A DNA stretch of 64,000 nucleotides, taken from Branchiostoma lanceolatum. Lineage: Eukaryota; Chordata; Leptocardii; Amphioxiformes; Branchiostomatidae. This document shows positions 8,501 to 61,890 of the stretch, in pieces. The translations under genes and the position numbers were made by a program. The notes under the pieces are model-generated. The model saw nothing but the letters and a program-made list of their open reading frames with translations. It ran no database searches and had not been told where the DNA came from. The stretch covers positions 25,987,925 to 26,051,924 of the forward strand of contig NC_089725.1 of the NCBI RefSeq assembly GCF_035083965.1. Direction: 5' to 3'. Every line of letters begins with the position of its first letter. The stretch's first letter is position 1.

Positions 8501-11500
8501 CAAGATAGGGACAAATTATCCTGCAGTGTTTAACCTCAGCACTAGAAAGGCTGCCATTGCACAGGTAATTTCTGAGCAATAAAAAACATTATTAACCTCA
8601 TGACCGGCATGCCTTGGGTTGCTGCCTGGTAAAACAGGGTGTACCAGTACGGCAGCAGTGCGTAGCGAGCACGGATGGCCTCCCGTATCCCATTCATGGT
8701 CTCCTTGTCGAACAGCCAGGGCTCGCGGCGACGGGTGTCCAGATGGGCGTGGGCACGGAAGAACGGCTGGTATGCAGCAGCCTGGCAACACACATCAACA
8801 TGGACCAACTGTTAGCATGACTTAAGTTGTACTTTTCAGACCACAGAAATTCAAACTGTGTCTGCTTTGCCATTTTTAGTAACAAAGCGGTCGAACATCA
8901 GGACGAAGCATGACACTTTTTTAGTATTAGAATGTGTACTAAAATACAGGACTGCAAGACACAAACCATAATCAAGGCAAATCTTTAAGATCTGAACAAG
9001 GAGCCTCGACTCAAGAATCATTGTCAGAAGGACAGGTTAATTTTCAACTGATGAAATGTTGTACTTATACTATACTATACTGGTAATGGTATTTCATGAA
9101 ATATGAATAACATGTTCCTACCTGATACCATCTCAGCAACAGCTCCGAGTCTGGATTCTTGAAGAACCCTCCCACATCAGCTGTAGACAGAGAGAGATTA
9201 CTATTATCTTTTATAAAATACAGACCAAGAAAACCACTTTTAGGACAGACAGGTAGCTACTATAGACAGGATTCTTAATGCCAATGGAAAAAAATTATCA
9301 AAGGGAGAACCAAATAGTGGTCTCATTGGCCAGGTGGTACTTACATAGAGGCGGTCACTTGTACAGGTTCGACTGTAAAATTCTGTTTAAAAATGTTAGG
9401 GTGATCCACTCACTCATTATATCACAATATCACTTACTTACTACATCACACTATACTGCAATGCTATAGAGTGACACAACAAGTCGCTTAAACACTTTGT
9501 GCACATGGACATGCAGAACTGTACATCATGTACTGACCTCCCACAAACGACTGTCCTGCGACGCTGAGAGACAGCAGCATGGGGATGCTGATCTGCAGGT
9601 GGCCCCACTCAGCCGTATTATCACCTGTCCACACAGCACCTGGGAAAACATTGAGGTACAAATGTCATATTCATTACCATCTACTGGTTCTGTATCTACA
9701 ACCGTGGAAACGTCCTGAGGTTGGAATCAGTCTTCAATTTGTTCCACTGCGTCTTGCACCTAGCAAACTCCCTTAGCTCTCGAGTTTCATTTGCTGTGCT
9801 TGAGGCCTGTCTTTATCATGTTTACGGGCTTGGAGTCTGTTAGAGCCCAATACTCCTTTTGTGCACATGTGTTCCGTGCCATTCTGAGAACATTTCCAAA
9901 CATTGACCACCGGAGTTGAGCAGCTTTGCACATTAATCTGATTATCCCAGCCTGCTCTTTACAAACTGCATCCATGTCTTTCTTCTTAATAATATTGAAA
10001 TTCATTATGTAATGGCAAACTATACATTGCAGATTACAAATTAGATATAGATAATCTTACCATAACGCTGGTACCCAGAAAAGAAGGCTCTTGACAGGAC
10101 AAAAGGCCTCTCCTTGTTATTTGACCTTTGCATCAAGCCAAGGTAGGTTGACTTGGGCTGGGAAAAAGCATCAAGATTAGAGTATTATCTTTGCAATTTT
10201 GAATCATACTGCTCTATTAGGTATGCACGGCAATACAAGCAAGAACAAATCAACAAATCTCTGATGGTTGATACTAACAGAAGACAAAACTCACTGTAAA
10301 TCTTAATATAATATACACTAGCTTTATTTTGCAGTGACCTGTCCACTATGAAATCATGATGCCGAATACAATGTATATCCATTATCTAAAACACTGTGAA
10401 AGCCTCCTTTCTCCTCCTATTGCAAAATTCAGTCCCTGTAAAAGATAACGAACTTACAGTACTTCAACATTACGCAAGAACGAGTCTTACCAGGTACATG
10501 CCGAAGATGTTGTGGACATCCCTGTGTTCCCAGCCGCCATAGTGCACGGCGTCCTTGTGCATGGTGACCTCGGGACCATTGAACACCGACGGCTCGTTCA
10601 TATCGTTCCAGATGAACAAGTTCTTGGTAGAACCCTGATGTAGTGAATATAAAGATGTTGAATAGATAAACAAATGATGAATAAATAAATCCATAAAACT
10701 TCTATCCATCATCATCGGTCGGTCGCGCAGCGGCCGATCACACGCCTTCTCCACGTCTGCCGGTCAGTAGCCATTTCAGTGATGGCCTCTGGGCTCAGGT
10801 CACCTTCAGCATCCCCAAGCAGGTTCTGGATGTAGGTCAAGTAGTTCGTTTTCTGACGTCCTGGTCGCCTTCTGCCATGTGTCGGGACGTAGAGGGCGTA
10901 TGTCCTGAGTGGCTCCTCTGTGGGCAGCCTGAGGGCGTGCCCAATAAAGCCCAGTTGTCGCTGTCTGACTCTGTTGATGAGTATACCTATGTCAGTATAT
11001 CTATGTCTATCCATAGATATACTGTATCTACCCTTTTACGTAAAATTCTGGTTTGTCAACATTTTCAATAGTACTATCTAACCTCAACATAGGACAGGAA
11101 CAATTTGAGTGTCTTCCCTGTTTTTTGCTGGAAATACTAGTTTAACTAGGAAAACGAAGGTACTTTCCCCAACAGACCTGCTGTGATGTAATAGAAAGAT
11201 GTCGAATCCTCATAAACTACTAGCCACAGAAATTTGGTTTTGGCATGAATACTATTAAATCAAAAATAGCACAGACAAAGATAACGTTTTTCTCTGGGAA
11301 TGGCAATTTAACTTCCCCGTAGAAACCTGCCATATATAGTAAAAAGATAAATGTGAACCCTGTATGTATGGCCACTTTCAGAGTTTCCTCACCTCAAATG
11401 TGCCCAGTTCAAACCTGCTGGCCCACCAGCTCCGGACAGTAGGGTTGATAAAGTCAAGGTAGCTGGAGGAGCCTGGAAATCAAACAAAGGGAGTCAAAAA

Positions 11501-14500
11501 GCTGTCTACTAAACATTATGAACTTCAGATTCAAGGCACTTATTACATGAAATCATAAAATTAAAGCTTTTTGCACAAGGCATCTGTGGTGCTCACGCAG
11601 GAAAGATAAATGCACTTTTGATATTGTATGTTTATTAGACTTAGTAGTTCAGAGTTCAATGGGCACAAATACCTGGCCAACACCAGCCCTCAAAGTCCCC
11701 TCCATCTTTGCTCTTGACGTAGTACCCATGGTCCTTTGCATCCTTGTGGATGTGGTAGTTGTCATCTCTCTTGATGTGTGGGTCCACGATCACGACCATC
11801 TGGTATGCGCAGGGGAAAAGAAACTTGTAATAAAATCAACCAAAGGGGGCTACATGTATCATAAAATCAGTTGTCTATTTAAGGATAAAAGGAGAATGAT
11901 GAGAGATGCAGCCAATACATCATGGACACTGTAAAGCACCTTCAGCATTCTCATTGTTTAGAATGACAAGGACCACTACCGTTTTATCTCAAAGAGCAGA
12001 GATTGCAAAGGGTAATGTTGACTCACCTTCCTGCCCTTTGCTGCGACCTTGTCCTGCATGTCGACAGGGTGGGGGAACTTGTGCTTGTCCCAGGTCATGT
12101 ACCTGAGGGGTAAGGAGAATGTACTATATGGTAAGTTTCTTGGGTGTTTACACAAAATACTTGAGAAATAGCAATGAGTATCATAAGCTGCAACTGCCAT
12201 ATGCCAATAGTTTTTTGTTGAAGTCAGCTGAAGGTTTAATTGTAACTCACCTTTTGCCATCAGTGTGCTCAATGTCTAGCCAGAGGACATCATATGGAAT
12301 GTCATTGTCATCAAACCCTGCATCAACACTGTAAGGGAACAATGATAGAGATGTTGACAGTTTATCATGTACAATGTCATAAATAACCTATTTAAAACAT
12401 AATGTTGAAATAAATATCATGAGAACATTCATGCACACACACAACTGTAAACTTTCACTCATGATTTTGTACCAAACTAATAATGTGCCATACTATCAAA
12501 TCTGTAAATATTTCCGATACTCTTGAGACTAAACAATAAAAATGACAACTTACTTCTTGACGTCTTCTTCATCATTGTAGTTCCACCTACTCTGATGGTA
12601 TGCAATGGCAAACAGCTGCAAAAGGACGGACAATGCTATAACAGTTGCATAGGAGATATAGTGTATTTGATTTCATTGAGCAACAAACAAACTACCAATA
12701 CACAGCTTCTAAAGTAAAATATACAGTCTGGAAGCTTTAAACAATACTTTGAATACCGTTTCGATATAACAACCCCACAATGCATTTAAGTTCTTGTTTT
12801 TGGTGAGATACAATACTTCAACATTAACATTATATGCCCAAAATCTGATGCAATTCGAAAAATTGGAGAGAGACGATAGAAACATGAGTAACGTACAGGA
12901 GGCATGGCTGGTTTGCCAGTCAGGTCTGTGTACTGTGAGAAGACTTCTGCAGGCCTCGGCCCCAGCATGAAGAACACGTCAATCACTCCGCTCTCTGATA
13001 TCCAGTGGGTGTCGGTCTGCGGCATCTCACTCCCGCCCTTCACATAGTCCAACATCTTCCCAAACACAGTCTACAGAGAGGGAAAAAGACAAATTGTCGC
13101 AAGATTGTGAGACAGAGAGAAAGATAAAGCTGATAGGAGCTTTGAAGATATCTTGCCATTCGTAGCCTTTATGTTAAACAACACCAAAAATCATTTAAGT
13201 GACACTGAAGTTTGCTTCAAGATGGACTACCTTAAAAAGCAGTGATAGCGAAAAATAGTTTTGATAGATTAAAACTGTTTTTTCACTATCACAGTTTTTA
13301 ACAGTAGTGACTCATCTATATCCCTTCTTGTCAAAACTATTTGTGGGATCTACAATATTTCATTTTACTACATCTTTCCAAAATAAAGATCAATTTTTTT
13401 TTCTGACAAGTTCAATTGTTTACAAATAAGCCATGCAATAGAAGGACCCAAGTTTCATACAGAGCACACTGCAAACAAAATGTCCAAGCTGATCCAAACA
13501 ACAGGTGATGCATATCAACAGCGTCACACACCTCCCTCCCATGCATAAAGGATCTACAGCAGGGTATTATCCAGAAAGAGGTGAGATGATACACATTACG
13601 TTTTCTATTACTTTAAACTATTTTCCTTTTTCCAAATTTGTAAGAGATGTCAATCAGATATCTTTCATTTTCCCTAAAGATAATTTTGTGTCACTGCTAT
13701 TTCAATAGAACTAATTTTGATAGCCAAACCAAGTACAGTTTCATATATCTGCCAATCAAAAAGATACCCTTAGGGAATAAGTCAGACTGTGCTACCTGGA
13801 TATTGGATATGGCAAAAACATATTGAGATGGAATCCAAAATTTGGTACTTCAAGTTCCTAGATGATACCCTGCCTACGAAAAAGATTCTTTACATACATG
13901 TAGAAGAGTGTCAAGAAGCAAGAGGGACCAAAATGTGCAGCCTAGTCACTTTTCTCTATCCTCACTGTTACCTTAAAATGGGCAAAACTGACAAAAACAG
14001 AAAAAGCAGTTTCCTTAAACAACTTTTTTTGGCAAATGATATAACCATGCAGGGAAATTGTAGCCCTGTATCCATTCTATTCTTGACTAGCTCCCTGTAA
14101 AATAGTCAGGCACCGGTTGATAGAGGAATGACTGACATTCAAATATTTGCATCAAATACAAGCGAGAACTCTCACTGGCTCTGAATATTTCTTACAAGTA
14201 GCATAACTGGGATCAAGCTTCCAAATGCCTGTTTGAGCCCCATTACCATGCTATTACAGAGAACCGTGCTACTCAGAGCCAATCAGAGCTCTCGCATATA
14301 TTCTAAGGCATATCTATTAATAAATGCCAATCGTTTATCTATTAACAGGTACGAAACTATTCTACAGAGAAGCCATCATAGGAACTAGAATAGGATGGAT
14401 ACCAGGCTAGGGAAACGGTAAAAAAAATAATGACTTGCAAGTGCCATTCTGTATCACATGCATGCCACCCGATTTGTTGCTATGCCTGCTTGGTGGGAGG

Positions 14501-35950: not shown

Positions 35951-38900
35951 TCATGGAGCTGGGGCTTCACCTTGGGCAGCACCCACTGAGGACCTTTCTG
36001 AAGGCACACGCTGACTGAGCCCAACAAGCCTCTCGCTGACCTGCCATAACATTCTGGCCACATTCTCATCCTTGGTCCGGTAGCCCGGCTCCCTTGGCCA
36101 ACAGTCACTGCAGCAGGAGGAAAGGGAAGGTAGAACAATGTCAAACATAAGACTATCAAGGAGATACAAGTCGATTTGCAAAATTAATGTGTTACACTTA
36201 GTTAGTATCATCCAAACCACTGCACGCGACATTTTTGCTTGTACTTTTTCTTGCAACACGTGGAGTTTAAGTCAGCAGAATTAACAGAGTCACATGTGAC
36301 ACATAATAGACTAACACGCATGCGTAAGAGACCAGATCTGGAGTTGAAGATAAAAGCCTGCAGGTGTCAGGATGCAGCTGCACATGCCGCAAGAATCTAG
36401 CATCTAAACTGCAGTCTTGACGTCAGTGTCATCGCTTGAAGTACCAGTTCCAAGCAGATGAGATGCAACGGATCAACACAAGGACCTGTTCTTCCATACT
36501 TGAACTGTGTAGGGGTGATATTATGTGAACAAAAAATATTTTCTATTTTCATTTTCTACAAAAATGGCACACTACGTGAAGTATTGGCCTGTCTTGTCCT
36601 CCAGACCCTCTGTCACGGCACAGTGGATGGTAGTCTGGGCACCATGAACTAAAGTCTTGCCAAACCAGCTGGCGACGATGTTGATAAAGACACTACGCCA
36701 TGGGCCTAGGCTGGTTGCTATGTGTTGGTACTGGTCTGTCTTGATTATTCCTGGGTGCAGACAGTATGTCGTCACACCTGTCCCTATAAGGAGAAAACAA
36801 TATACTGTATCAGTCTTTTGGTATCTCAGTCTGTTGACCAGAGAAACATTATTAACGTTTAACTTGGTTATGTGACTGACCTTGGCTCTAATCACACCAA
36901 GACTGTCATAACTTTTTCGGATTCTGAATGAAAGATTGGACAACCCACAATGTCCATCAAATGGACAGCAGCCCAAATTAGAATTCTACAGTTCCTACCT
37001 GGCCATAAATTCCACCCTACCCTACTCTAATTTACTCTGCTCTTGATTGTCCTATACTTTTGGGTAAATATACTATTGGGTAAAAAAGAACTTTAAAAAC
37101 ATGCAGTCACCAATTCCTCTATATCAATTTCACTGTTGAGAGATGTTCATTTGCAACTAAAAGCTGTCCAAACTGCCTACCCTCCATCTTCTTTGCCAGT
37201 GTCCTGGTGAAGTAGATAAGTGCTATCTTGCTGTCCCCAAAGGACTCTAACGGATCATACTCCCTCTTCTCCCATTGCAAGTCGCCCCAGTTCAGTATGC
37301 CTGCGTGGTGAGCGTAAGCAGAGACACTGACGACCCGGCTGGGAGCAGACTTCTTCAGCAGGTCCAGGAGGAGGTTGGTGAGGAGGAAGTGGCCCAGGTA
37401 ATTCACGCCAAACTGCAGCTCAAATCCATCCCCTGTCTGTGACTTTGGAGGCATCATCACCCCTAGAAATCACAGGAGCAAAAAAAAACAAAAAAAACTT
37501 GACTATCACACGAGAAAAGTGCCAAAAAGATGGATGGATTGAATACATCCAGGCATTCTAGAGTTATCATGCCTTTGGATTGTCTGGATATTTGGTACGT
37601 TGTCATGATGAGACCTCGAAACAATTATATTTAGGCCTGGCTCCTACCATCTTGTAATGGTACTGCAGCAGAACTTCCCTTTTTGTATCTTTTGATCTAA
37701 AGGTGCTACAGTTACCACAATGGAGTGGTAGATGCACAAGAAAATCATTTTAGCAACTTGAGTCCAGCAGATGTAAGAGTAACTTATTTTCAGATTAATA
37801 CAAGTGTAGCAGTGGGGATCAACCTCCACTAACTGACCAGTCTAATGGGTACGGACCTTTAATTTTAGCCTAGTGGTTAGCGCGTTGGATTCCTAAGCCG
37901 TACAGATCGGGATCGGCGCGGGTTCCAATCCCGGGAGCGGCATACTTGCCCCTTCGCCCGGTTTCTACTCAAGTGACATTAAAACAGTAGTCACCTGCTC
38001 CTGGCAAACTCACCTGCATTGTTAATCAGAATGTTCAGCTGTTCTTCTGTCTCGTTGATTTTCTGAGCGAAGCTGCGGACAGAGGCCAGGGATGCCAGGT
38101 TCAGCTGATGCACGATGACGTTCTCATTCTTAGTCTCTTCTTTGATGTCGTCAGCAGCTTTCTGGGCTCTGGTCAGATCTCGGCAGGCCAGGATGATTTT
38201 CGCACCTGCCAGCCAGTTGTTGAAAGAAAGGATCTTGTTCAGACTGAGGATTGATTTTTCCATATCACGTAATGTCAGCTATCATAATTCTACCAGGGAC
38301 CCTAGCTATGACTGACATATTTTAAAGAAATTCTTAAGAGCTCTACTTACGTAGCATTAGTAATCCCCCAAGTATGCACTCTTTGGATTTCCAGGCACAT
38401 GTATACAAGACATTCTTGAGAAGAATAGTTAACACGATTTTTTTAATGTGGCAGTCTTTGGGAGAGTTTACGTTACTTCATGACCCACCCCTAGAAAAAT
38501 TGGCGTTTAGTAAAATTGATGTTCCATTTTACACATCTGTTTCCAACACCATGCATATAATAAACCAGTGCACCAGCTCAGATAATGATATAAAGCTTAT
38601 CATCTTTAATCAAACCATATTCTTGGAACAAAGATGACCCAGCTCTGCATCATCAGATGTCTTACAACATGTATTCATATTGAGTTCTTGGGTCACACAG
38701 TTTCGTTGGAGAATATTTACTGTAACTCTTGATTTGTTAACTGTAAGTGTAACTTAATTTTAGCTGATTCTATTCAACAGCTAAAATTACATCATCGCAA
38801 ATATTTGATAACTAATATTTAAGACAGTAATGTTTGTTCCCACCGTAAAATTAAGAGCCGTGACCCACTCCATTTTCCCCCAACCGCTACATATTTTCCT

Positions 38901-39542
38901 GACGCTATATCAAAGTCATTTACAGTATTCTGTATACCAAACAGGACTACTTTGTGAGAGTAGTAAAGGTGGCCATCTACATCAGGGCGCACCAACCTTC
39001 TCTCAACCGGGACGGGGGGTGACATCAACTTCAGACGACATTTGACCCATTACTGACGTCACACGTAGTACAGATAGTCAGGTGTCCACAGACAGATGAA
39101 GAAAACTGGCAGTGCGTGAGTCCAATCCACTACAATCTAATCTATTCTTCCTGCATTCAGAAAAACACAGAACGTACATACATATACATATGATTACAAT
39201 ACATACAAAGCACAGCACCTGGTTCATACATGACTGCAATGCACACGAGAAGATAGAACAACTATAGAACAACATACCGTCCAATATTTCAGTTGGAGAT
39301 CAGTTTATCTCTTAATTATCAACTCTGATTAACATTCAAAATGATAACCCTCTATCTTTGCTTCTATGAAAAATTAACACAGATTTTCATGACAGATCAA
39401 GAGTTTTATCTGATCAGTTCTATGACTCACCCCTTACTGCCAGGTCCTTGGCTGTCTCAAAGCCGATGCCCTTGTTGGCCCCAGTTACTATGACCGTCTT
39501 CCCGTCAAGACGGGCATTACTCCAGCACATGATACCTGGCAT
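35951..39542 (-). CDS. RDH-like short-chain dehydrogenase, copy A (catalytic Ser and Tyr replaced)
   Basis: CDS exons: 39431-39542, 38014-38205, 37181-37462, 36576-36783, 35951-36107. They sum to 951 nt, or 316 aa, the length of human RDH12. Rossmann cofactor motif TGANKGIG is at residues 20-27, NNAG at 99-102, the structural Asn122 in [10 protein letters not shown] in [10 protein letters not shown], and the family C-terminal segment YFTDC...[16 protein letters not shown]. It belongs to the SDR7C group (RDH11-14), NADP(H)-dependent retinal/retinol oxidoreductases. It has no N-terminal membrane anchor, unlike RDH11/12. The active-site Ser is Ala150 (VSVSAYAH) and the Tyr of YxxxK is Phe176 (SFGDSK), while Lys180 stays. 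The reading frame, splice sites and length are otherwise intact, so a catalytically dead but expressed paralogue is more likely than a pseudogene. The start at 39542 has a second in-frame ATG four codons on. Confidence 0.92.
36418..36425. promoter_or_regulatory. Perfect CRE palindrome
   Basis: TGACGTCA, the CREB/ATF consensus, in intron 4 of RDH copy A. One of seven perfect copies between 35.5 and 54.8 kb. Confidence 0.4.
37640..37700. repeat. Dispersed repeat fragment shared with 46190-46270
   Basis: Both places have GGTACTGCAGCAG followed within a few bases by TTTTTGTATCTTT. The family is unknown. This copy is in intron 2 of RDH copy A. Confidence 0.45.
37864..37945 (+). mobile_element. 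tRNA-derived SINE head
   Basis: An A-box-like TAGCCTAGTGGTTAGCGCG is followed at tRNA-like spacing by a B box (GGTTCCAATCCC, 37921-37932). The acceptor arms do not pair, so it is a SINE head, not a tRNA gene. It lies just downstream (minus-strand sense) of RDH copy A exon 2. Confidence 0.65.
39054..39061. promoter_or_regulatory. Perfect CRE palindrome in intron 1 of RDH copy A
   Basis: TGACGTCA, 370 bp inside the gene from its first coding exon. Confidence 0.4.
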
Positions 39543-42601: not shown

Positions 42602-42814
42602 CCTTAGTAACAGTCAACTATTACACTCTACAACATACAATGTTGATTTTCAGTTAATCTTAGCCTTCATCAATTGACAATGATGTAATCATCATCCAAT
42701 GCTTTTTTCGATGCTGTTCCACCATAATGACAGAGTTTATTTCTATCCACATGAATATGCAGCTACATGTTCAAGCTGTATCACACACTGTGTTCATGGA
42801 GTTTGGCCTTCAGT

Positions 42815-45380
42815 TTAGGCCTCTGAGGACCCTTCTGCTGGCCCTATCTGCTGACTGAGCCCCACAAGCTTCTCGCTGACCTCCCATAACCTCCTGGCCA
42901 CATCACCATCCCTGGCCCTGGAGTTGGGCTGCTTTGGTGCACAGTCACTGCAGCAGGGGGAAGGGGGACGGGAAGGTAAATAATGTAGAATATGGCAATA
43001 TCAAATAATGTAAAACGTGTACATTTTTGATATTTGTATGCATTTCAACAACTTTCTCAATGTAAACGTGTACATTTTAATATTTGTATGCATTTCAACA
43101 ACTTTCTCATGTGTCACAAACTGTTTAATGTCATAAGTTAAAATCATCAAAACCATTACAGGCAACAACTGGTCCTTTGTTTTCACTAGTACACGACGCA
43201 TGTGGAACAAAACAGAACACGACATATTACTGTTATAGTTAAGATCAGTTGTACATTAGACTATAGGACAGGCTGCCACACTACCTGAAGTATTGGCCTG
43301 ACTTTTCCTCGAGACCCACTGTCACGGCACAGTGGATGGTGGTCTGGGCACCCTGCACTACCGTCTTGCCAAACCACTTGGCAAAGGTGTTAATGATCCC
43401 ACTTTTCCAGCCCATGCTGGTGCCCAGGTGTTGGTACAGGTCTGTCTTGATCACTCCTGGGTGCAGTGAGTACGTCGTCACACCTGTCCCTGTACAGAGA
43501 TTATAAAATTAGTTTGGTATCTCATCAGCTAAAGTTTCTTCACAATGTCATCAAGATGTACAGGACTATTGTGAAGAGACGCTTGTGAAGAGAAACATAC
43601 TTCTGCTAGGCTAGGTGATTGACCTAGTCTCTCATCATGCTAAGCTTCAAACTGTTTCCTGATTCTGTATGAAAGATTAATTGTCCTACACTGTCACTAT
43701 TGAGCCCAAAGAAGACACATTTCTCAATACCAATTTCACGGTGGAATGTTGATACATGTTCATTTGCAACTGTCGAAACCTAATCTCCTAGCCAATGTTA
43801 GGAGAGACTTGTTACGTTTTCCTAGCTGTCATTTCTTGTGTCAAGAAACACAGAAATGGGCAGCTTGGCAAACATAAACGATGTCAACGTCTGTTAGAAG
43901 ATTAGTCCACAGTACCTACCCTCCAGCTTCCTTGCCAGTTCCCTGGTGAAGAAGATGGTTGCTATCTTGCTGTCCCCATAGGCATCAAACGGCACATACT
44001 CCCTCTTCTCCCACTGTAGGTCGTCAAAGTCTACTCTGCCTTCCTTGTGCAGAGAGGAAGAGACGCTTACAACCCGGCTGGGGGCAGACTTCTTCAGCAG
44101 GTCCAGGAGGAGGTTGGTGAGGAGGAAGGGGCCCAGGTGGTTCACTCCGAACTGCAGTTCAAATCCGTCCTCCGTGTTTAACTTTGGAGGTGCCATCACT
44201 CCTAAAATTAACAGGTGCAAAGAACTGTCAGAACATCCCAGCGAAAAGTACTTATACATCAGTGACATATTTACCTACATTGTTGCTCAGATGTAAATAT
44301 GAATCCACGCATTTATCAAGTTATATTAGCAGCCTCCTTACATCAGAGGTAAAGGTAAATCATTTTGACATGGATACCAGTGACATTAAAACCGGAATCA
44401 TATACTGTCGACAGCTTTGACCATATTGAATTACAGTACACTCACCTGCATTGTTAATCAGAATGTTCAGCTGTTCTTCTGTCTCGTTGATTTTCTGAGC
44501 GAAGCTGCTGACAGAAGCCAGGGAAGCCAGGTTCAGCTGATGCACGATGATGTTCTCATTCTTAGTCTCCTCTTTGATGTCGTCAGCAGCTTTCTGAGCT
44601 CTTGTCAGATCTCGGCAGGCCAGGATGATTTTCGCACCTGTGGTCCAGTCATTGAGAGAAAATATCCTGTTGAGACTGAGGACTAATTCATGATATCCGG
44701 AAACATCTTTACATATTATGTAGCGTCAAGTAGTGAATTTAAAGAGCTCTTATAATGCAGCTTCTTTAATCCCAAGAAATTCTTACTGTAAATGCATTTA
44801 AGTTCACGTGGTTTTTATTTCGCGCTAAGGCGAAAATGGAGTGTTCACGGTGGTTTTAAGTTCGCGGCAGCGCTATAGTCACATACTGCTACAGCATTGG
44901 ACAGAAATGTTTGCGATAGCTTTAAGTCCGCGTTGAAATGGTCGCCGCGAAAACCGCGAACATAAAACCACCGCGATCATTTTTTCATTTGATTACTTCA
45001 GATATCCAGGAATGCAAGACATTTCAGAGAAGGCCTTAATGACACAATCTTTTTTAGGACAACAGGTAGACTTATGAGAGTTGATGTTACTTTCCTGACC
45101 TACCTCGAGAAAAATAGGCTGTGTTTTCACCTTCTGTGTATTAACCGATTACGTAGCTGCTGAATACGACTAATCACACCGTCCTTTCTTTGACTATGAT
45201 AAGTCAATACAGATCTTTCGGATAACAATTTAGTGTTTCCTTGCTTTGTTCTGTGGCCTTCTATGACTCACCTCTTCCTGCCAAGTCCTTGGCTGTCTCA
45301 TAGCCGATGCCCTGGTTGGCCCCAGTTATTATGACCGTCTTCCCGTCAAGACGGGCCTTACTCCGGCACATAGAAGGCAT
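42815..45380 (-). CDS. RDH-like short-chain dehydrogenase, copy B
   Basis: CDS exons: 45272-45380, 44446-44637, 43920-44201, 43285-43489, 42815-42947. They sum to 921 nt, or 306 aa. The intron positions and phases match those of copies A and C. Cofactor motif TGANQGIG is at residues 19-26 and NNAG at 98-101. Catalytic Ser149 (VSVSSSLH), Tyr175 and Lys179 (AYGDSK) are all present, so it should be an active NADP(H)-dependent SDR7C enzyme of the RDH11-14 type. The substrate (retinal, other aldehydes or lipids) cannot be read from sequence. The N-terminus is soluble, with no signal or anchor. The last exon ends in TAA (GSSEA*), six residues before the AEAPAP tail used by copies A and C. GVNHLGPF replaces the usual GVNHLGHF. 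Confidence 0.93.
43013..43115. repeat. Two-copy tandem repeat, about 51 bp unit
   Basis: AAACGTGTACATTTT ... ATATTTGTATGCATTTC ... CAACAACTTTCTCA is repeated head to tail in intron 4 of RDH copy B. Confidence 0.7.
44786..44990. repeat. Dispersed TTAAGTTCGCGG-type repeat
   Basis: Intron 1 of RDH copy B has ATTTAAGTTCACGTGG, GGTTTTAAGTTCGCGGCAG, AGCTTTAAGTCCGCG and, inverted, CGCGAACATAAAACCACCG. The internal inverted similarity suggests a MITE-like family widespread in marine invertebrates. The family name is not known to me. Confidence 0.5.
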
Positions 45381-47940: not shown

Positions 47941-50759
47941 TCATGGAGCTGGGGCTTCAGCCTGGGCCTCTGAGGACCCTTCCGGCAGCCCTGGCTGGCT
48001 GAGCCCCACAAGCTTCTCGCTGACCTCCCATAACCTCCTGGCCACATCATCATCCCTGGCCCTGGAGTTGGGCTGCTTTGGTGCACAGTCACTGCAGCAG
48101 GGGGAAGGGGAATGGGAAGGTAAGGTAAGGTAGAACAATTGACAATATCGATATCATATATGAGGTGAAGATAAAGAGAGTCCCATAGCCTTTTTGGGGC
48201 CGCAGGAATAGTGGGTTGTTATCCACCGTGTCTAGGTATTTGAAGGTAGAACGCAGCAGGGGGAAGGGGAACAGGAAGGTAAGGTAAGGTGAAACAATTG
48301 ACAATATCAATATCATAGATGAGGTAAAGATAAAGGTAGTCCCATAGCCTTTTTGGGGTCATTGGGGCAGTGGGTTGTTATCCACCATGTCTAGGGCACG
48401 ATATTGGAATGTGGAACTCTCCTCCCCAACCAAGGTCAGGTACCTATTTTTACACCTGGGTGGAGTGACGAAATTCTTGTAAACTGCCTTTCCCAAGGAC
48501 ACAACCTCTGACCTCTTGATCTCGGGCCCGCTAGCATAGCCACTCGCCCATTCAAAGCCATGTAAATGATGTAACACCTGTAAATGTGTAATGTTTTATG
48601 ATATGATCATCAAAATCATTGAAGGTCCTTTATTTTTTTCAAGTACTTGGCCCTTCTAGAATAAAATGTTTGCTTTCATAGTTACTATCACTTGTGCATT
48701 AGGTTAAAGGACAGGCTGCCACACTACCTGAAGTACTGGCCTGTCCTGTCCTCCAGACCTTCTGTCACGGCACAGTGGATGGTGGTCTGGGCACCCTGCA
48801 CTACCGTCTTCCCAAACCACTTGGCAAAGGTGTTAATGATCCCACTTTTCCAGCCCATGCTGGTGCCCAGGTGTTGGTACAGGTCTGTCTTGATCACTCC
48901 TGGGTGCAGTGAGTATGTCGTCACACCTGTCCCTGTATAGAGAAAAGAACATAGCAGTCTTTTGGTATCTCAGTCCATTACATTTTCTTCATAATGTCAT
49001 TATGATGTATATACAGTATTCAAGACAGTTGTGAAGAGAAACATACTTATGCTTAGTTAGGTGATTGACATAGTCTCTAACCACACTAACTATAAAAGTA
49101 TGAGCTTCAAAGTTTTTCTGATTCTGCATTCTGAACTATTGAGTTCAAAGAACATTTTTAAACAACAATAAAAAACAAACAAATTTCTCAATACCATTTT
49201 CACAGTGGAATGTTGATACATGTTCATTTTCAACTAAAAGCTATCCAAACTTAATCTTCAAGCAGATGTTGGGGTGAGTCTAAATTGCTACATTCTCCAG
49301 CTGTCCTTTTCTGTGTCATTCAGCCTTCCCCTTACATCTGCTTGGATGTTCGTCCAAACTACCTACCCTCCAGCTTCCTGGCCAGCTCTCTGGTGAAGAA
49401 GACATTTGCTATCTTGCTGTCCCCATAGGAATTGGCTGGATCATACTGCCTCTTCTCCCACTGTAGGTCGTCGAAGTTGAGTCTGCCTGAGTTGTGAGCG
49501 TAAGAAGAGACGTTGACGACCCGGCTGGGAGCAGACTTCTTCAGCAGGTCCAGGAGGAGGTTGGTGAGGAGGAAATGGCCCAGGTGGTTCACTCCAAACT
49601 GCAGCTCAAATCCATCATCGGTCTGCATCTTTGGAGGCGCCATTACTCCTAAAATCAAAGTGCAAACAGCCGTTAGAACATCCCAGCAAAAAGTACTTAT
49701 ACATGAGTGACATTTTTTCTGCATTAACATTGGTGATCAGATGTAAATATTAATGCACATAATCCATCCATCCATTCATCCATTCATCCATTCATCCATC
49801 ATTTTGAAATGGACACAAGTGACGTTAAGATAGGTCTGGATTAATACAATGCTGATACCTTTAACCATAAGTTGAAGTGTTGAATTACAGTTGGACTCAC
49901 CTGCATTGTTAATCAGAATGTTCAGCTGTTCTTCTGTCTCATTGATTTTCTGAGCGAAGCTGCGGACAGAGGCCAGGGAAGCCAGGTTCAGCTGATGCAC
50001 GATGATGTTCTCATTCTTAGTCTCCTCTTTGATGTTGTCAGCAGCTTTCTGAGCTCTCGTCAGATCTCGGCAGGCCAGGATGATTTTTGCACCTGTCAGC
50101 CAGTCGTTAAAAGGAAATATCTCGTTCAGACTGAGGATTAATTTATGATGTGTGGAAACAGCTTTCCATGTGACGTCAACTCTCATAATTCTGCCACATT
50201 TAAAAAAAATGTGAACCTAAGGAGCTCTACAGCATCAGTAATCCCTAGGGTATGCACACTTCCATCCTGATTGAATCGCACTATAGTGGCAGGCACCTCT
50301 GGCCCTGTGGGTAGGGGCCATAAAACCCCTGGACAGCAGAGTTTGCATTTACACAGACTATCAGTATCACAATTTAGATATCCAGTTATTCAATTTCAAG
50401 ACATTCTTGATTAGGCCTTGATAAACCAAGGACATTATATATAATGTCCTTGTGATAACACAATGTTTTTTAGGATACCTAGCATACTTTATGAGAGTTG
50501 AGTATTACTTCCTGACCTAGGCTACCCCCCAAAAAATTGGATTTTAGTAAATGTTCTATTTGGCTTATGTAAAGGAACTATTTTTCACATCCTGCATAAA
50601 CCAATGTTACCTGCTGTTGTTTCATGGTTCTATGGCCTTATATCACCCACCTCTTCCTGCCAAGTCCTTGGCTGTCTCAAAGCCGATGCCCTGGTTGGCC
50701 CCAGTTACTATGACAGTCTTCCCGTCAAGACGGGCCTTACTCCGGCACATAGAAGGCAT
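47941..50759 (-). CDS. RDH-like short-chain dehydrogenase, copy C
   Basis: CDS exons: 50651-50759, 49901-50092, 49367-49648, 48728-48932, 47941-48091. They sum to 939 nt, or 312 aa. TGANQGIG is at residues 19-26, NNAG at 98-101, and the catalytic set Ser149 (VNVSSYAH), Tyr175 and Lys179 (SYGDSK) is intact. The substrate-side segment reads [17 protein letters not shown] and the end [20 protein letters not shown] matches the RDH11-14 pattern YFSDC...A.RLWxVS. It is the likely ancestral-type active copy. It is nearly identical to copy B over exons 1, 2 and 4, and less similar in exons 3 and 5. NADP(H) oxidoreductase activity is expected; the substrate is unknown. A 159-bp tandem duplication begins right at the exon 5 acceptor, and a CRE palindrome lies at 50171-50178 in intron 1. 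Confidence 0.94.
48094..48396. repeat. 159-bp tandem duplication abutting the RDH copy C exon 5 acceptor
   Basis: GCAGCAGGGGGAAGGGGAA starts at 48094 and again at 48253, and ATCCACC(G/A)TGTCTAGG ends both units, with a constant offset of 159 bp. The units contain the dispersed block GTGGGTTGTTATCCAC also seen at about 28680. Confidence 0.9.
49763..49800. repeat. (ATCC/ATTC)n microsatellite
   Basis: Short run of CATCCATTCATCCATTCATC in intron 2 of RDH copy C. Confidence 0.9.
50171..50178. promoter_or_regulatory. Perfect CRE palindrome in intron 1 of RDH copy C
   Basis: TGACGTCA, about 80 bp upstream of exon 2 in the direction of transcription. Confidence 0.4.
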
Positions 50760-58670: not shown

Positions 58671-58719
58671 TTCAGACATCTGACGAACCCAAGTGTTTGG
58701 CAAGACGTCTTGCGGCGCC

Positions 58720-61700
58720 ATGATGGAACATAGCTTCATTGAAAGATGGATGAGCAACGGTTTCAAGAAGTTCGGACGGATAATTGCAAAACAGCCACAC
58801 GCCTTTCTGTTCGTCTCCCTGCTTGTGGCAGGGGGTCTGGGGGCAGGACTCTACTTTATAGACAACGAGAATTCTATCGAGACACTGTACACTCCCGACA
58901 ACGGGGCAGGGAAGGCCGAGAGGGCATACATTCAGGAACATTTCCCGATTAACGATTCGGAACATTTTCTACCCTCCCGTCTGATCACATCGGGGCGGTA
59001 TGCCGCCATCATCGTCAGGGGTTGTGGCAATCTCGCGGACAATGTGCTACACGAGGCGGTTGTGAACGCGACTGTTTCTCTTCATAAAAGCATCACGCAA
59101 ATAGAAATAGAAGACCAGGAGTTAACCTTTACCTCCGTCTGTGCTAAATGGGAATCAGAATGCGTTGTGACCGGCCTGGACTTCTTGGATTACGTCGCGG
59201 CGCAGGTGCCAAACGTTACGGTAGGATACCCGCTCCAGGACAGGATTTTCAGCGGTGCCGTCCTTGGCGGTGTGACGCTGGAAGACGGGACGGATACCGT
59301 GGAGAGGGCGACGGCTCTCAAGCTGATCTACCATCTCAGGTCTTCCCACGAAGATGACGATGCGTCGAGCGAGGCGTGGGAGCGCGCGTTCCTCAGCTAC
59401 ATGGCGACGTTTTCCGCGGAGTTCATCGACGTGTCGTGGTCGACGTCCCGCTCCCTGGAGACGGAGATCTCCGATCTGACCATAAGCTCCGTCCCCACGC
59501 TAGCGGCCTACACCGGCAGCATGCTGATGGCGTTCGCCGTCCTGTCCTGCCTGATGATCGACCCGGTGCGCAGCAAGCCTTTCCTGGGGATGGTGGGCGT
59601 CCTGGGCGCGGGGATGGCCGTCCTGGCGACCATCGGCCTGATGTCCTACTGCGGAATCAAGTTCAACACCCTGGTGGCCGCCATGCCTTTCCTGGTCATA
59701 GGTCAGTACACAACACTTGTAAAAAAACAGTTAAGTAACATATCCATAGCGTTGGTGGAAAGGTTTACCTTACACAATCGCTGTTCCAGAGAGGTGCGGA
59801 CATGCCTTCCATGCAGTTTCAATATGGACATGTAGTTTGTGGCAGGTACTCCGTAGTCTGTGACTGGATCGCTGGCCGTAATGTTTTCAATACTTAGCTA
59901 TCATTTCTTCATCAAAACAGTCTATATGATCTAAGCTTATTTTTGGCGCCCCCACCTTTACTGTCATGTATAGCAATATTTTCACTAATTACGTCCTCTC
60001 TACACCTCTTCAGGTGTCGGCGTGGACAACATGTTCATCCTGCTAGCGGCGTGGAGGAAGACCAACCCGTGGGACAGCGTGCAGGAACGGTCGGCCAACA
60101 CCTACGCCGAGGCCGGAGTCTCCATCACCATCACCACGCTGACCAACGCCTTGGCCTTCGCTGTTGGCGCCATCACAAGCTTCCCGGGGGTCCGCGTGTT
60201 CTGTATGTACAGCGGGATAGCCATAGTGTTTGCGTACTTGTTTCAGCTTAATTTCTTTGGAGCGTGTATGATATATGACGGGTACCGAGAGAAACAGAAC
60301 CGACATTTCCTGACGTGCATGGCGGTCCCCTTACCGTCGAAAGACGACCAGTCGGGGTGTTGCCAGCAATCGTGCTGCAGGGGGGACGCAATGGGGGGAG
60401 TCGAACAGGACGGCAAGGATCACAACGATCACCTCATTATGCTTTTCTTCAAAAAGTACTACGGGCCTTTCATGACAAACGAGTGGGTTAAAGTAGCAGT
60501 TATGGTCGTGTTTCTTGGGTACCTGGGCGTCGCGATTTGGGGGTGCGTACAGCTGAGGGAGGGCGTCCAGCTCAGTAAGCTTGCGGGCGACGCCTCGTAC
60601 GTCGCCCGCTTCCTCGAGCAGGACGACCGCTACTTCAGCGAGTACGACATCAGGGTCGCCGTGGTCGTTAAAGAAGACCTAGACTATTGGGACCCTGACG
60701 TGCAGGATCGAGTTGAGAACATGTTAGCGAGGTTTGAGGACACCGCGTTCACTTGTGGTAAAAACGAGTCTGAGTCATGGCTTCGTGATTTCTTGGCATT
60801 AAAAGACCTAATCTGCCTCAATCCCTATCTACCGCAGTTGAACCCAGCTAATAAAACGTCCTTCATAAAGTGCCTCAGGGGCCGATTTCTTGAGATACCT
60901 GAATTCTCCAGATATGCACATGATATATTGTTCAATGAAAACGGTACTGGAATTATAGCCAGTCGTTTTTTTGTTCAGACCAAGCAAATTGACGGGACTC
61001 TAAAGGAGAAAAACATGATGATAAATATGAGAGATTTAGCATCTGATGCGTCTGTAGAATCAATTGTTTACCATCCGGCGTTCGTTTATTACGATCAGTA
61101 CACCGCCATTCTACCCAACACCTTGCAAAACTTAGGTATCGCCACGGCCGCCATGTTAGTTGTATCTCTCATCCTCATGCCCCATCCAATCAACGCCGTC
61201 TGGGTCACTCTCGCCATTGCGTCCATCTGCACCGGCGTTCTCGGCTTCATGACGCTCTGGGCCGTCAATCTAGACAGCGTTTCCATGATTAACATCATCA
61301 TGTGCATCGGGTTTTCCGTCGACTTTTCGGCTCACATCGTCTACTCCTTTGTCACGGCGGAGGAGAGTGGTCGCGACGCCAGAGCTGTGCATGCGCTCTA
61401 CAGTCTGGGCGTGCCGATCCTCCAGGGGTCGTTATCGACCATCCTGGGTATAGCCGCACTGAGCACGGCTCCCTCGTACGGCTTTCGTACCTTTTTCAAA
61501 ACGGTGTTCTTGGTCATCGTGTTTGGACTTGTGCACGGCATTGTCTTCCTTCCCGTTATGCTGTCCTGTTTGGGCCCGCAAGGGGCGGCAAACTTGAAGG
61601 AGAACAGGAGTGACGAGGCCCAGGCCGGTCATTTTAATACCTCCAATCATAACGCGGAGGACGGCGGGAACGTCGTGCTACAAGATGTAAAAGTACGTAT

Positions 61701-61890
61701 ACAGAAAAACAATGAAAACCCACTGATGACCGTCAGTATGAAGACCTGGCTCGACCATTTAAAAGATGAAAATTTACAGAAAGGTGAAAATTTACAGAAA
61801 AACAAGGGCACGACTGAAAGTCAATTGAATCTGACAGCGAACCCAGAAATGGGTGTTTCAATGGAGCAGATCAAAATTGTACCCCGTTGA
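58720..61890 (+). CDS. Patched-domain protein (PTCHD-like, sterol-sensing domain), 952 aa
   Basis: CDS exons: 58720-59701 and 60014-61890 (donor ATAG|GTCAGT, acceptor CTCTTCAG, phase 1), 953 codons including the stop. ATG at 58720 is the first Met after an in-frame TGA at 58681. The layout is that of the Patched/RND superfamily: TM1 (about 28-47), an extracellular loop with several Cys, a five-helix sterol-sensing block (about 258-412), TM7 after a Cys-rich cytosolic linker, a second loop, then five final helices. The RND-type GxxxD motifs are GVGVD (328-332) and GFSVD (760-764). The family (PTCHD3 and relatives) is thought to move or sense sterols or lipids in membranes. Ligand and polarity are unknown here. 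The intron splits the codon of the first motif's Gly. A polyadenylation signal lies at about 62337. Confidence 0.92.

Follow-up and report, generated by a model that had tools for sequence, protein, structure and literature searches.

Copy A, one of three tandem copies of a gene in a 64,000-nucleotide stretch of the Branchiostoma lanceolatum genome (here termed the window), carries Ala and Phe in place of the catalytic Ser and the catalytic Tyr of its sister copies, and its five-exon reading frame is open. We strongly infer from the sequence that copy A is catalytically silent. With somewhat less than even confidence, we read it as an RDH11/12-like tandem paralogue with a disabled active site that may act without catalysis, most plausibly as a partner. 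A retained noncatalytic partner or binder is slightly favored over a duplicate that is losing its function.

Copies A, B, and C are three copies of one gene, arranged head-to-tail on the minus strand. Copy A comprises exon 1 (39431..39542; ATG at 39542; cofactor motif TGANKGIG; donor GGG/GTGAGT), exon 2 (38014..38205; NNAG motif and second part of the cofactor-binding region; 96% identical to B and C at the nucleotide level), exon 3 (37181..37462; the active-site exon, with Ala150 and Phe176 for Ser and Tyr and with Asn122 and Lys180 kept), exon 4 (36576..36783; ending at a weakened donor, CAC/GTAGTG), and exon 5 (35951..36107; C-terminal region and stop), the predicted join of exons 4 and 5 being uncertain. 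The predicted product is 316 amino acids (aa) long, AG/GT borders are present at all four introns, and the five-exon model has no frame-breaking change (i.e., no stop and no frameshift). Copy B (42815..45380, minus strand; exons 45380-45272, 44637-44446, 44201-43920, 43489-43285, and 42947-42815) encodes 306 aa, and copy C (47941..50759, minus strand; exons 50759-50651, 50092-49901, 49648-49367, 48932-48728, and 48091-47941) encodes 312 aa; both have Ser149 and Tyr175. The intron phases, calculated from the exon lengths of the predicted junctions, are 1, 1, 1, and 2 in all three copies. The preliminary description had stated that all exons, all phases, and the full length are kept in copy A. 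For the predicted junctions, the phases agree with this statement. Relative to B and C, copy A has one extra codon close to the N terminus and another within exon 4, and its tail differs. A tblastn search of the whole window for a second exon 3 of copy A with intact residues found none; apart from the five exons of each of the three copies, all matches had E-values of 1.5 to 7.7. In the variable tail of copy B (42794-42817), a stop was gained, with TAA where C has CAG, seven codons before the end of C; the old downstream stop is still recognizable in frame.

At the two positions of interest, copy A reads GCT (Ala150; 37317..37319, minus strand) where B and C read TCC and TCT (Ser149), and TTT (Phe176; 37239..37241, minus strand) where B and C both read TAT (Tyr175). 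Both replacements had been described for copy A earlier and were borne out, as was the retention of the cofactor motif (TGxxxGxG, present as TGANKGIG) and of Lys180 (read in FGDSK). Starting from the codons of copy C, a single base change suffices for each amino acid change. The GDSK after the Tyr/Phe column is identical in the three copies; B and C satisfy YxxxK, whereas copy A keeps the Lys and has lost the Tyr. We take the replaced columns to be the SDR catalytic Ser and Tyr on the basis of familiar SDR motifs and of the alignment with relatives. In SDR enzymes, the Tyr hydroxyl serves as the acid/base and the Ser orients the substrate; classical SDR chemistry should fail without them. By residue comparison, copy A has lost residues essential for catalysis, the loss that marks a pseudoenzyme. 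Judged in this way, it is related to the classical SDRs by descent and not by catalytic motif.

The three copies are classical SDRs by Pfam. Scores against Pfam adh_short (PF00106; gathering score, 26.6 bits) were 110.8 (A), 120 (B), and 121.1 (C) bits, with E-values of 7.9e-32, 1.2e-34, and 5.5e-35, respectively, which rules out chance resemblance. For A and C (the two copies tested), the best NCBIfam match was to PRK06197-type oxidoreductases (NF004846) over nearly the full length; for this bacterial family, C scored above the curated cutoff (286.9 versus 268), whereas A scored below it (251.6). A, B, and C are presumably RDH11/12-like (SDR7C-like), given a general likeness to the vertebrate proteins and the published expansion of these genes in amphioxus. 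Copy A differs from the RDH11/RDH12 retinaldehyde reductases in lacking the catalytic Ser and Tyr, and retinoid binding by copy A can be suggested from the family name only. The SDR7C anchor sits at the N terminus. By eye, the three products, which begin with MPGIMCW or MPSMCR, have no hydrophobic N-terminal anchor, and a further upstream exon is possible; the SDR7C family is called membrane-bound in the available part of a review (PMC7022914). According to the accessible text of PMC8387019, amphioxus has 22 Rdh11/12 genes that arose by lineage-specific expansion, and the tandem array of A, B, and C fits this expansion. The human RDH11/12 intron phases given in a table of PMC9859523 are 122221 versus 1-1-1-2 here, although the phase-counting convention may differ; because invertebrate members vary in the same table, the mismatch is not decisive. 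A passage of the same paper lists seven human SDR families with the N-S-Y-K tetrad; SDR7C is absent from this list, and the weight of the lost Ser therefore rests on the alignment.

To place the two replacements among relatives, we gathered 77 loci, all of them prokaryotic (33 from titled prokaryote genome records and 44 from further genomes); the animal sequences compared with copy A were B and C only. One gathering round gave matches in 80 of 198 genomes and 30 loci among the matches listed, one of which (L035) was already in the set. After 22 of the 77 loci were left out (15 short matches, 5 duplicates, 1 with an internal stop, and 1 overlong), 55 full-length proteins were kept. At the four catalytic columns, N, S, Y, and K were each present in 55 of these 55 relatives, among the matches listed. 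Within the first 33 loci, Ser and Tyr were found in all 32 that cover the active site, which L033 does not. We then considered the columns in which one residue is present in at least 90% of the 55 relatives and B and C agree. Copy A departs at 2 of 35 such columns (S150A and Y176F), and B and C each depart at 0 of 33 in the matching counts. The chance of two random hits among 35 columns both falling in the N-S-Y-K tetrad is 6/595 (0.010); this figure is post hoc, copy A having been chosen on account of the very same losses. The earlier proposal that oxidoreductase chemistry has been lost is well supported by these results, given that both residues are invariant in the relatives and that copy A departs at these two conserved columns only; a Tyr-to-Phe precedent from light-dependent protochlorophyllide oxidoreductase (POR), described below, points the same way. 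The other 36 changes specific to copy A avoid the conserved columns (permutation p = 0.0007; p = 0.0016 for the 33 changes in exons 3 to 5 only). Applied to B (13 changes; p = 0.28) or to C (4 changes; p = 0.22), the same test has little power and gave no signal. In viral contigs, 20 stretches fit a pattern, none of which codes for a relative.

A wholesale remodeling of the active site of copy A was considered and dropped. Two further differences from B and C lie near the active site (F160W and D161G), and in a set of 17 close relatives the residues of B and C were nearly invariant (F in 17/17 and D in 16/17); of the 6 changes that copy A shows in the 81 best-conserved columns, 4 fell within residues 145 to 181 (hypergeometric p = 0.005). 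With 38 relatives, F and D were each present in 30, and the clustering without positions 150 and 176 was not significant at three thresholds; with 55 relatives, the counts were 41 (F160) and 45 (D161).

Inactive or Tyr-less SDRs as such are already known, and two of them served as models for copy A. Among proteins with a solved structure, POR was one of the closest to copy A in sequence, and chain 6r46_A has Phe in the Tyr column of the alignment concerned. In the Y193F variant of POR, the ternary complex with NADPH and substrate forms, whereas the hydride-transfer intermediate does not (PMC4531822, in the part available). Unlike copy A, this is a light-driven plant/cyanobacterial enzyme with a single engineered change. 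A catalytically inactive DHRS3 (Y188A) does not reduce retinaldehyde yet binds and activates RDH10, according to the accessible sections of a review (PMC7022914). DHRS3 Y188A resembles copy A in that the catalytic Tyr is gone and the rest is kept, and it provides a model of a noncatalytic partner; it differs in being engineered, in belonging to another SDR family, and in having Tyr replaced by Ala, the Tyr change being the only one named in these sections. Because of these two precedents, we adopted a silent, cofactor-competent SDR as the working model. No published description of a dead copy A was found in the literature searched, a body of text outside which most subscription papers lie; a search of the same literature for an HSD17B8/CBR4 precedent found nothing related, one for the catalytic residues of RDH12 led to a paper about the gene structure of SDRs, and the available part of PMC8073704 contains nothing on catalytic loss.

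Under the working model, two single-base changes, one turning a TCT-like Ser codon into GCT and the other turning TAT into TTT, would have switched off the active site of an otherwise constrained protein. The product would fold and still bind NADP(H), and would not turn over without the Tyr hydroxyl and the Ser. It would then act most plausibly by associating with an active member of the array (B, C, or another) and altering the stability or activity of that partner; sequestration of a cofactor or ligand would be a weaker variant of such a noncatalytic role. The partner role for an RDH11/12-like copy A is an analogy only because the DHRS3-RDH10 interaction is described as highly specific and RDH11 did not coprecipitate with RDH10, as reported in the text available from PMC7022914. 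The more specific version, built on this analogy, is that copy A is a naturally evolved and selected RDH pseudoenzyme, a dead subunit that would pair with its sisters or other Rdh11/12 paralogues and tune retinaldehyde flux; we consider this version unlikely.

The strongest competing explanation, to which we assign a substantial probability short of one-half and below that of the noncatalytic partner or binder, is that copy A is a decaying duplicate, i.e., that catalysis was lost recently in a redundant array and that the gene is drifting toward a pseudogene with no stop or frameshift so far. The 22 Rdh11/12 genes of amphioxus make redundancy plausible. We evaluated this explanation with a codon model of three sequences (A, B, and C; 305 codons). 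Omega was 0.49 on the A branch versus 0.25 for B and C, a borderline difference (2dL = 3.69; p about 0.055). Neutrality of the A branch (omega = 1) was rejected over the 305 codons (2dL = 8.19), in exons 1 and 2 (omega = 0.29; 2dL = 4.63), and in exon 4 (omega = 0.36; 2dL = 4.48), whereas it was not rejected in the catalytic exon 3 (omega = 0.67; 2dL = 0.53) or in exon 5 (omega = 0.68; 2dL = 0.58). The dN/dS comparison put forward in the preliminary description thus gave a divided answer, with constraint overall and in exons 1, 2, and 4 and, in favor of decay, values not distinguishable from neutral in exons 3 and 5. Even the overall constraint is not proof of retention because the branch includes time before the loss.

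When a final neutral phase was added to the A branch, the fit was best, among the lengths on the grid, for a phase of 20 to 30% of the branch, which favors decay; phases of 0 to 60% were not rejected, and those of 80% and 100% were. An open frame is weak evidence for retention because only 0.7 to 1.0 stops are expected at 20 to 30% neutrality, compared with none seen, and simulated neutral substitutions left no stop in about 0.19 of the runs with 50 changes and in 0.05 to 0.07 of those with 91. The conserved columns speak against decay: at 0.137 to 0.188 substitutions per codon, of which a fraction of about 0.7 would alter the amino acid (our own arithmetic), neutrality at 20 to 30% predicts approximately 3 to 4 changes in the other 33 most conserved columns, and 0 were seen (P about 0.04 to 0.01). 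This argument is weaker when restricted to the 21 conserved columns of exons 3 to 5 (P about 0.13 to 0.06), and it would not apply if the loss were far more recent.

The splicing of intron 4 also bears on decay. The donor of this intron in copy A (CAC/GTAGTG; 36573-36578) has lost the G at position -1 and is the weakest of the twelve donors in the array, with a score of 0.8 versus 5.0 in B and C and at least 5.0 for the other eleven; the predicted U1 pairing is -3.6 kcal/mol versus -10.0 in B and C (the donor matrix and the U1 end used for scoring were taken from general knowledge). Of the GT 9-mers on the minus strand of the window, 33% score at least as high as this donor and 6.7% at least as high as that of B. 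A tandem donor three bases downstream scores 2.0 and would preserve the frame. Retention of intron 4 would end the protein immediately, with ...QYFT-stop in A; the corresponding end in B and C would be ...QYFR-stop. Copy A had been described as open and spliced; the open five-exon frame with AG/GT borders stands, whereas its splicing remains a prediction because of the weak donor, the sole candidate lesion that we saw in copy A.

The preservation of the cofactor-binding half must be read together with the pattern of divergence among exons. Exon 2 is 96 to 97% identical among A, B, and C, and exons 3 to 5 of A are 78 to 84% identical to those of B and C; away from the exon borders, the introns of A align with those of B and C in short pieces only. 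Part of the exon 2 similarity is possibly due to gene conversion, and, given this possible homogenization, the intact cofactor half carries less weight than it would at face value. The earlier proposal that copy A has been kept for binding is not established: omega below 1 averages over the A branch on both sides of the loss, a recent neutral phase gives an equally good fit, exons 3 and 5 are not distinguishable from neutral, the fourth donor is weakened, and exon 2 may owe part of its similarity to conversion. Between B and C, exon 3 (43920-44201 and 49367-49648) is 84% identical, with 18 nonsynonymous and 15 synonymous codon differences among 94 codons, and exons 1, 2, 4, and 5 are far less diverged (94 to 97% identity); it seems that either the active-site exon is diversifying or the other exons were homogenized by gene conversion.

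It is improbable that copy A is an altered enzyme, with a chemistry that needs Lys and the cofactor and neither Tyr nor Ser. In favor of this reading, copy A retains Asn122 and Lys180 together with the cofactor motif, and a natural precedent exists in basil eugenol synthase, a member of the SDR superfamily that lacks the catalytic Tyr, retains the Lys, and is active, with Lys132 being essential (PMC1991597, in its available part). This enzyme differs from copy A in being active, in its chemistry, and in belonging to a distant branch of the superfamily. Retinoids have no phenol hydroxyl group. The substrate analogue of eugenol synthase, on the other hand, places such a hydroxyl roughly at the position of the Tyr hydroxyl, as described in the same part of PMC1991597, which argues against a similar solution in copy A. 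The nearby differences F160W and D161G could be taken to indicate a modified site; because both positions vary among the relatives, they form no clear new motif. A sequence or assembly artifact is very improbable: the codons were read in a single sequence, but the two single-base differences are separate, lie 78 bases from each other within an otherwise open gene, and give sense codons exactly on the catalytic residues; chimeric joining of A to either sister would have brought Ser and Tyr in instead of removing them.

If copy A is retained, it would be a natural conversion of an SDR from an enzyme to a noncatalytic partner by two base changes, with adjoining sisters whose intact active sites provide built-in controls, and one could use it to ask whether catalytically dead RDH subunits control the flux of retinoids in animals other than vertebrates. 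If it is moreover a selected pseudoenzyme, it would be a natural counterpart, in the chordate retinoic acid pathway, of the effect of engineered inactive DHRS3. If it is decaying, it would be one more case of the usual birth and death of genes in tandem families. A tally such as "22 Rdh11/12 genes" is not necessarily a tally of enzymes.

Several other features were observed in the window. Intron 2 of copy A contains a stretch (37868-37945) that resembles the A and B boxes of a tRNA and that, going by these familiar motifs, we take to be perhaps a tRNA-derived SINE; no second copy of it was found in the window, and searches for structured RNAs and tRNAs near copy A gave 0 Rfam matches at the gathering score and 0 ARAGORN genes. 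On the minus strand, frames that look like exons of a gene for a family 31 glycosyl hydrolase are present at 8545-10763; of three frames compared with Pfam, two matched PF01055 and the remaining one (12789-13070) had no match. On the plus strand, two long open frames at 58684-61890 match Patched and sterol-sensing domains, and one of the two also matches the NPC1 middle luminal domain; these frames likely represent one membrane protein encoded in two or more exons.
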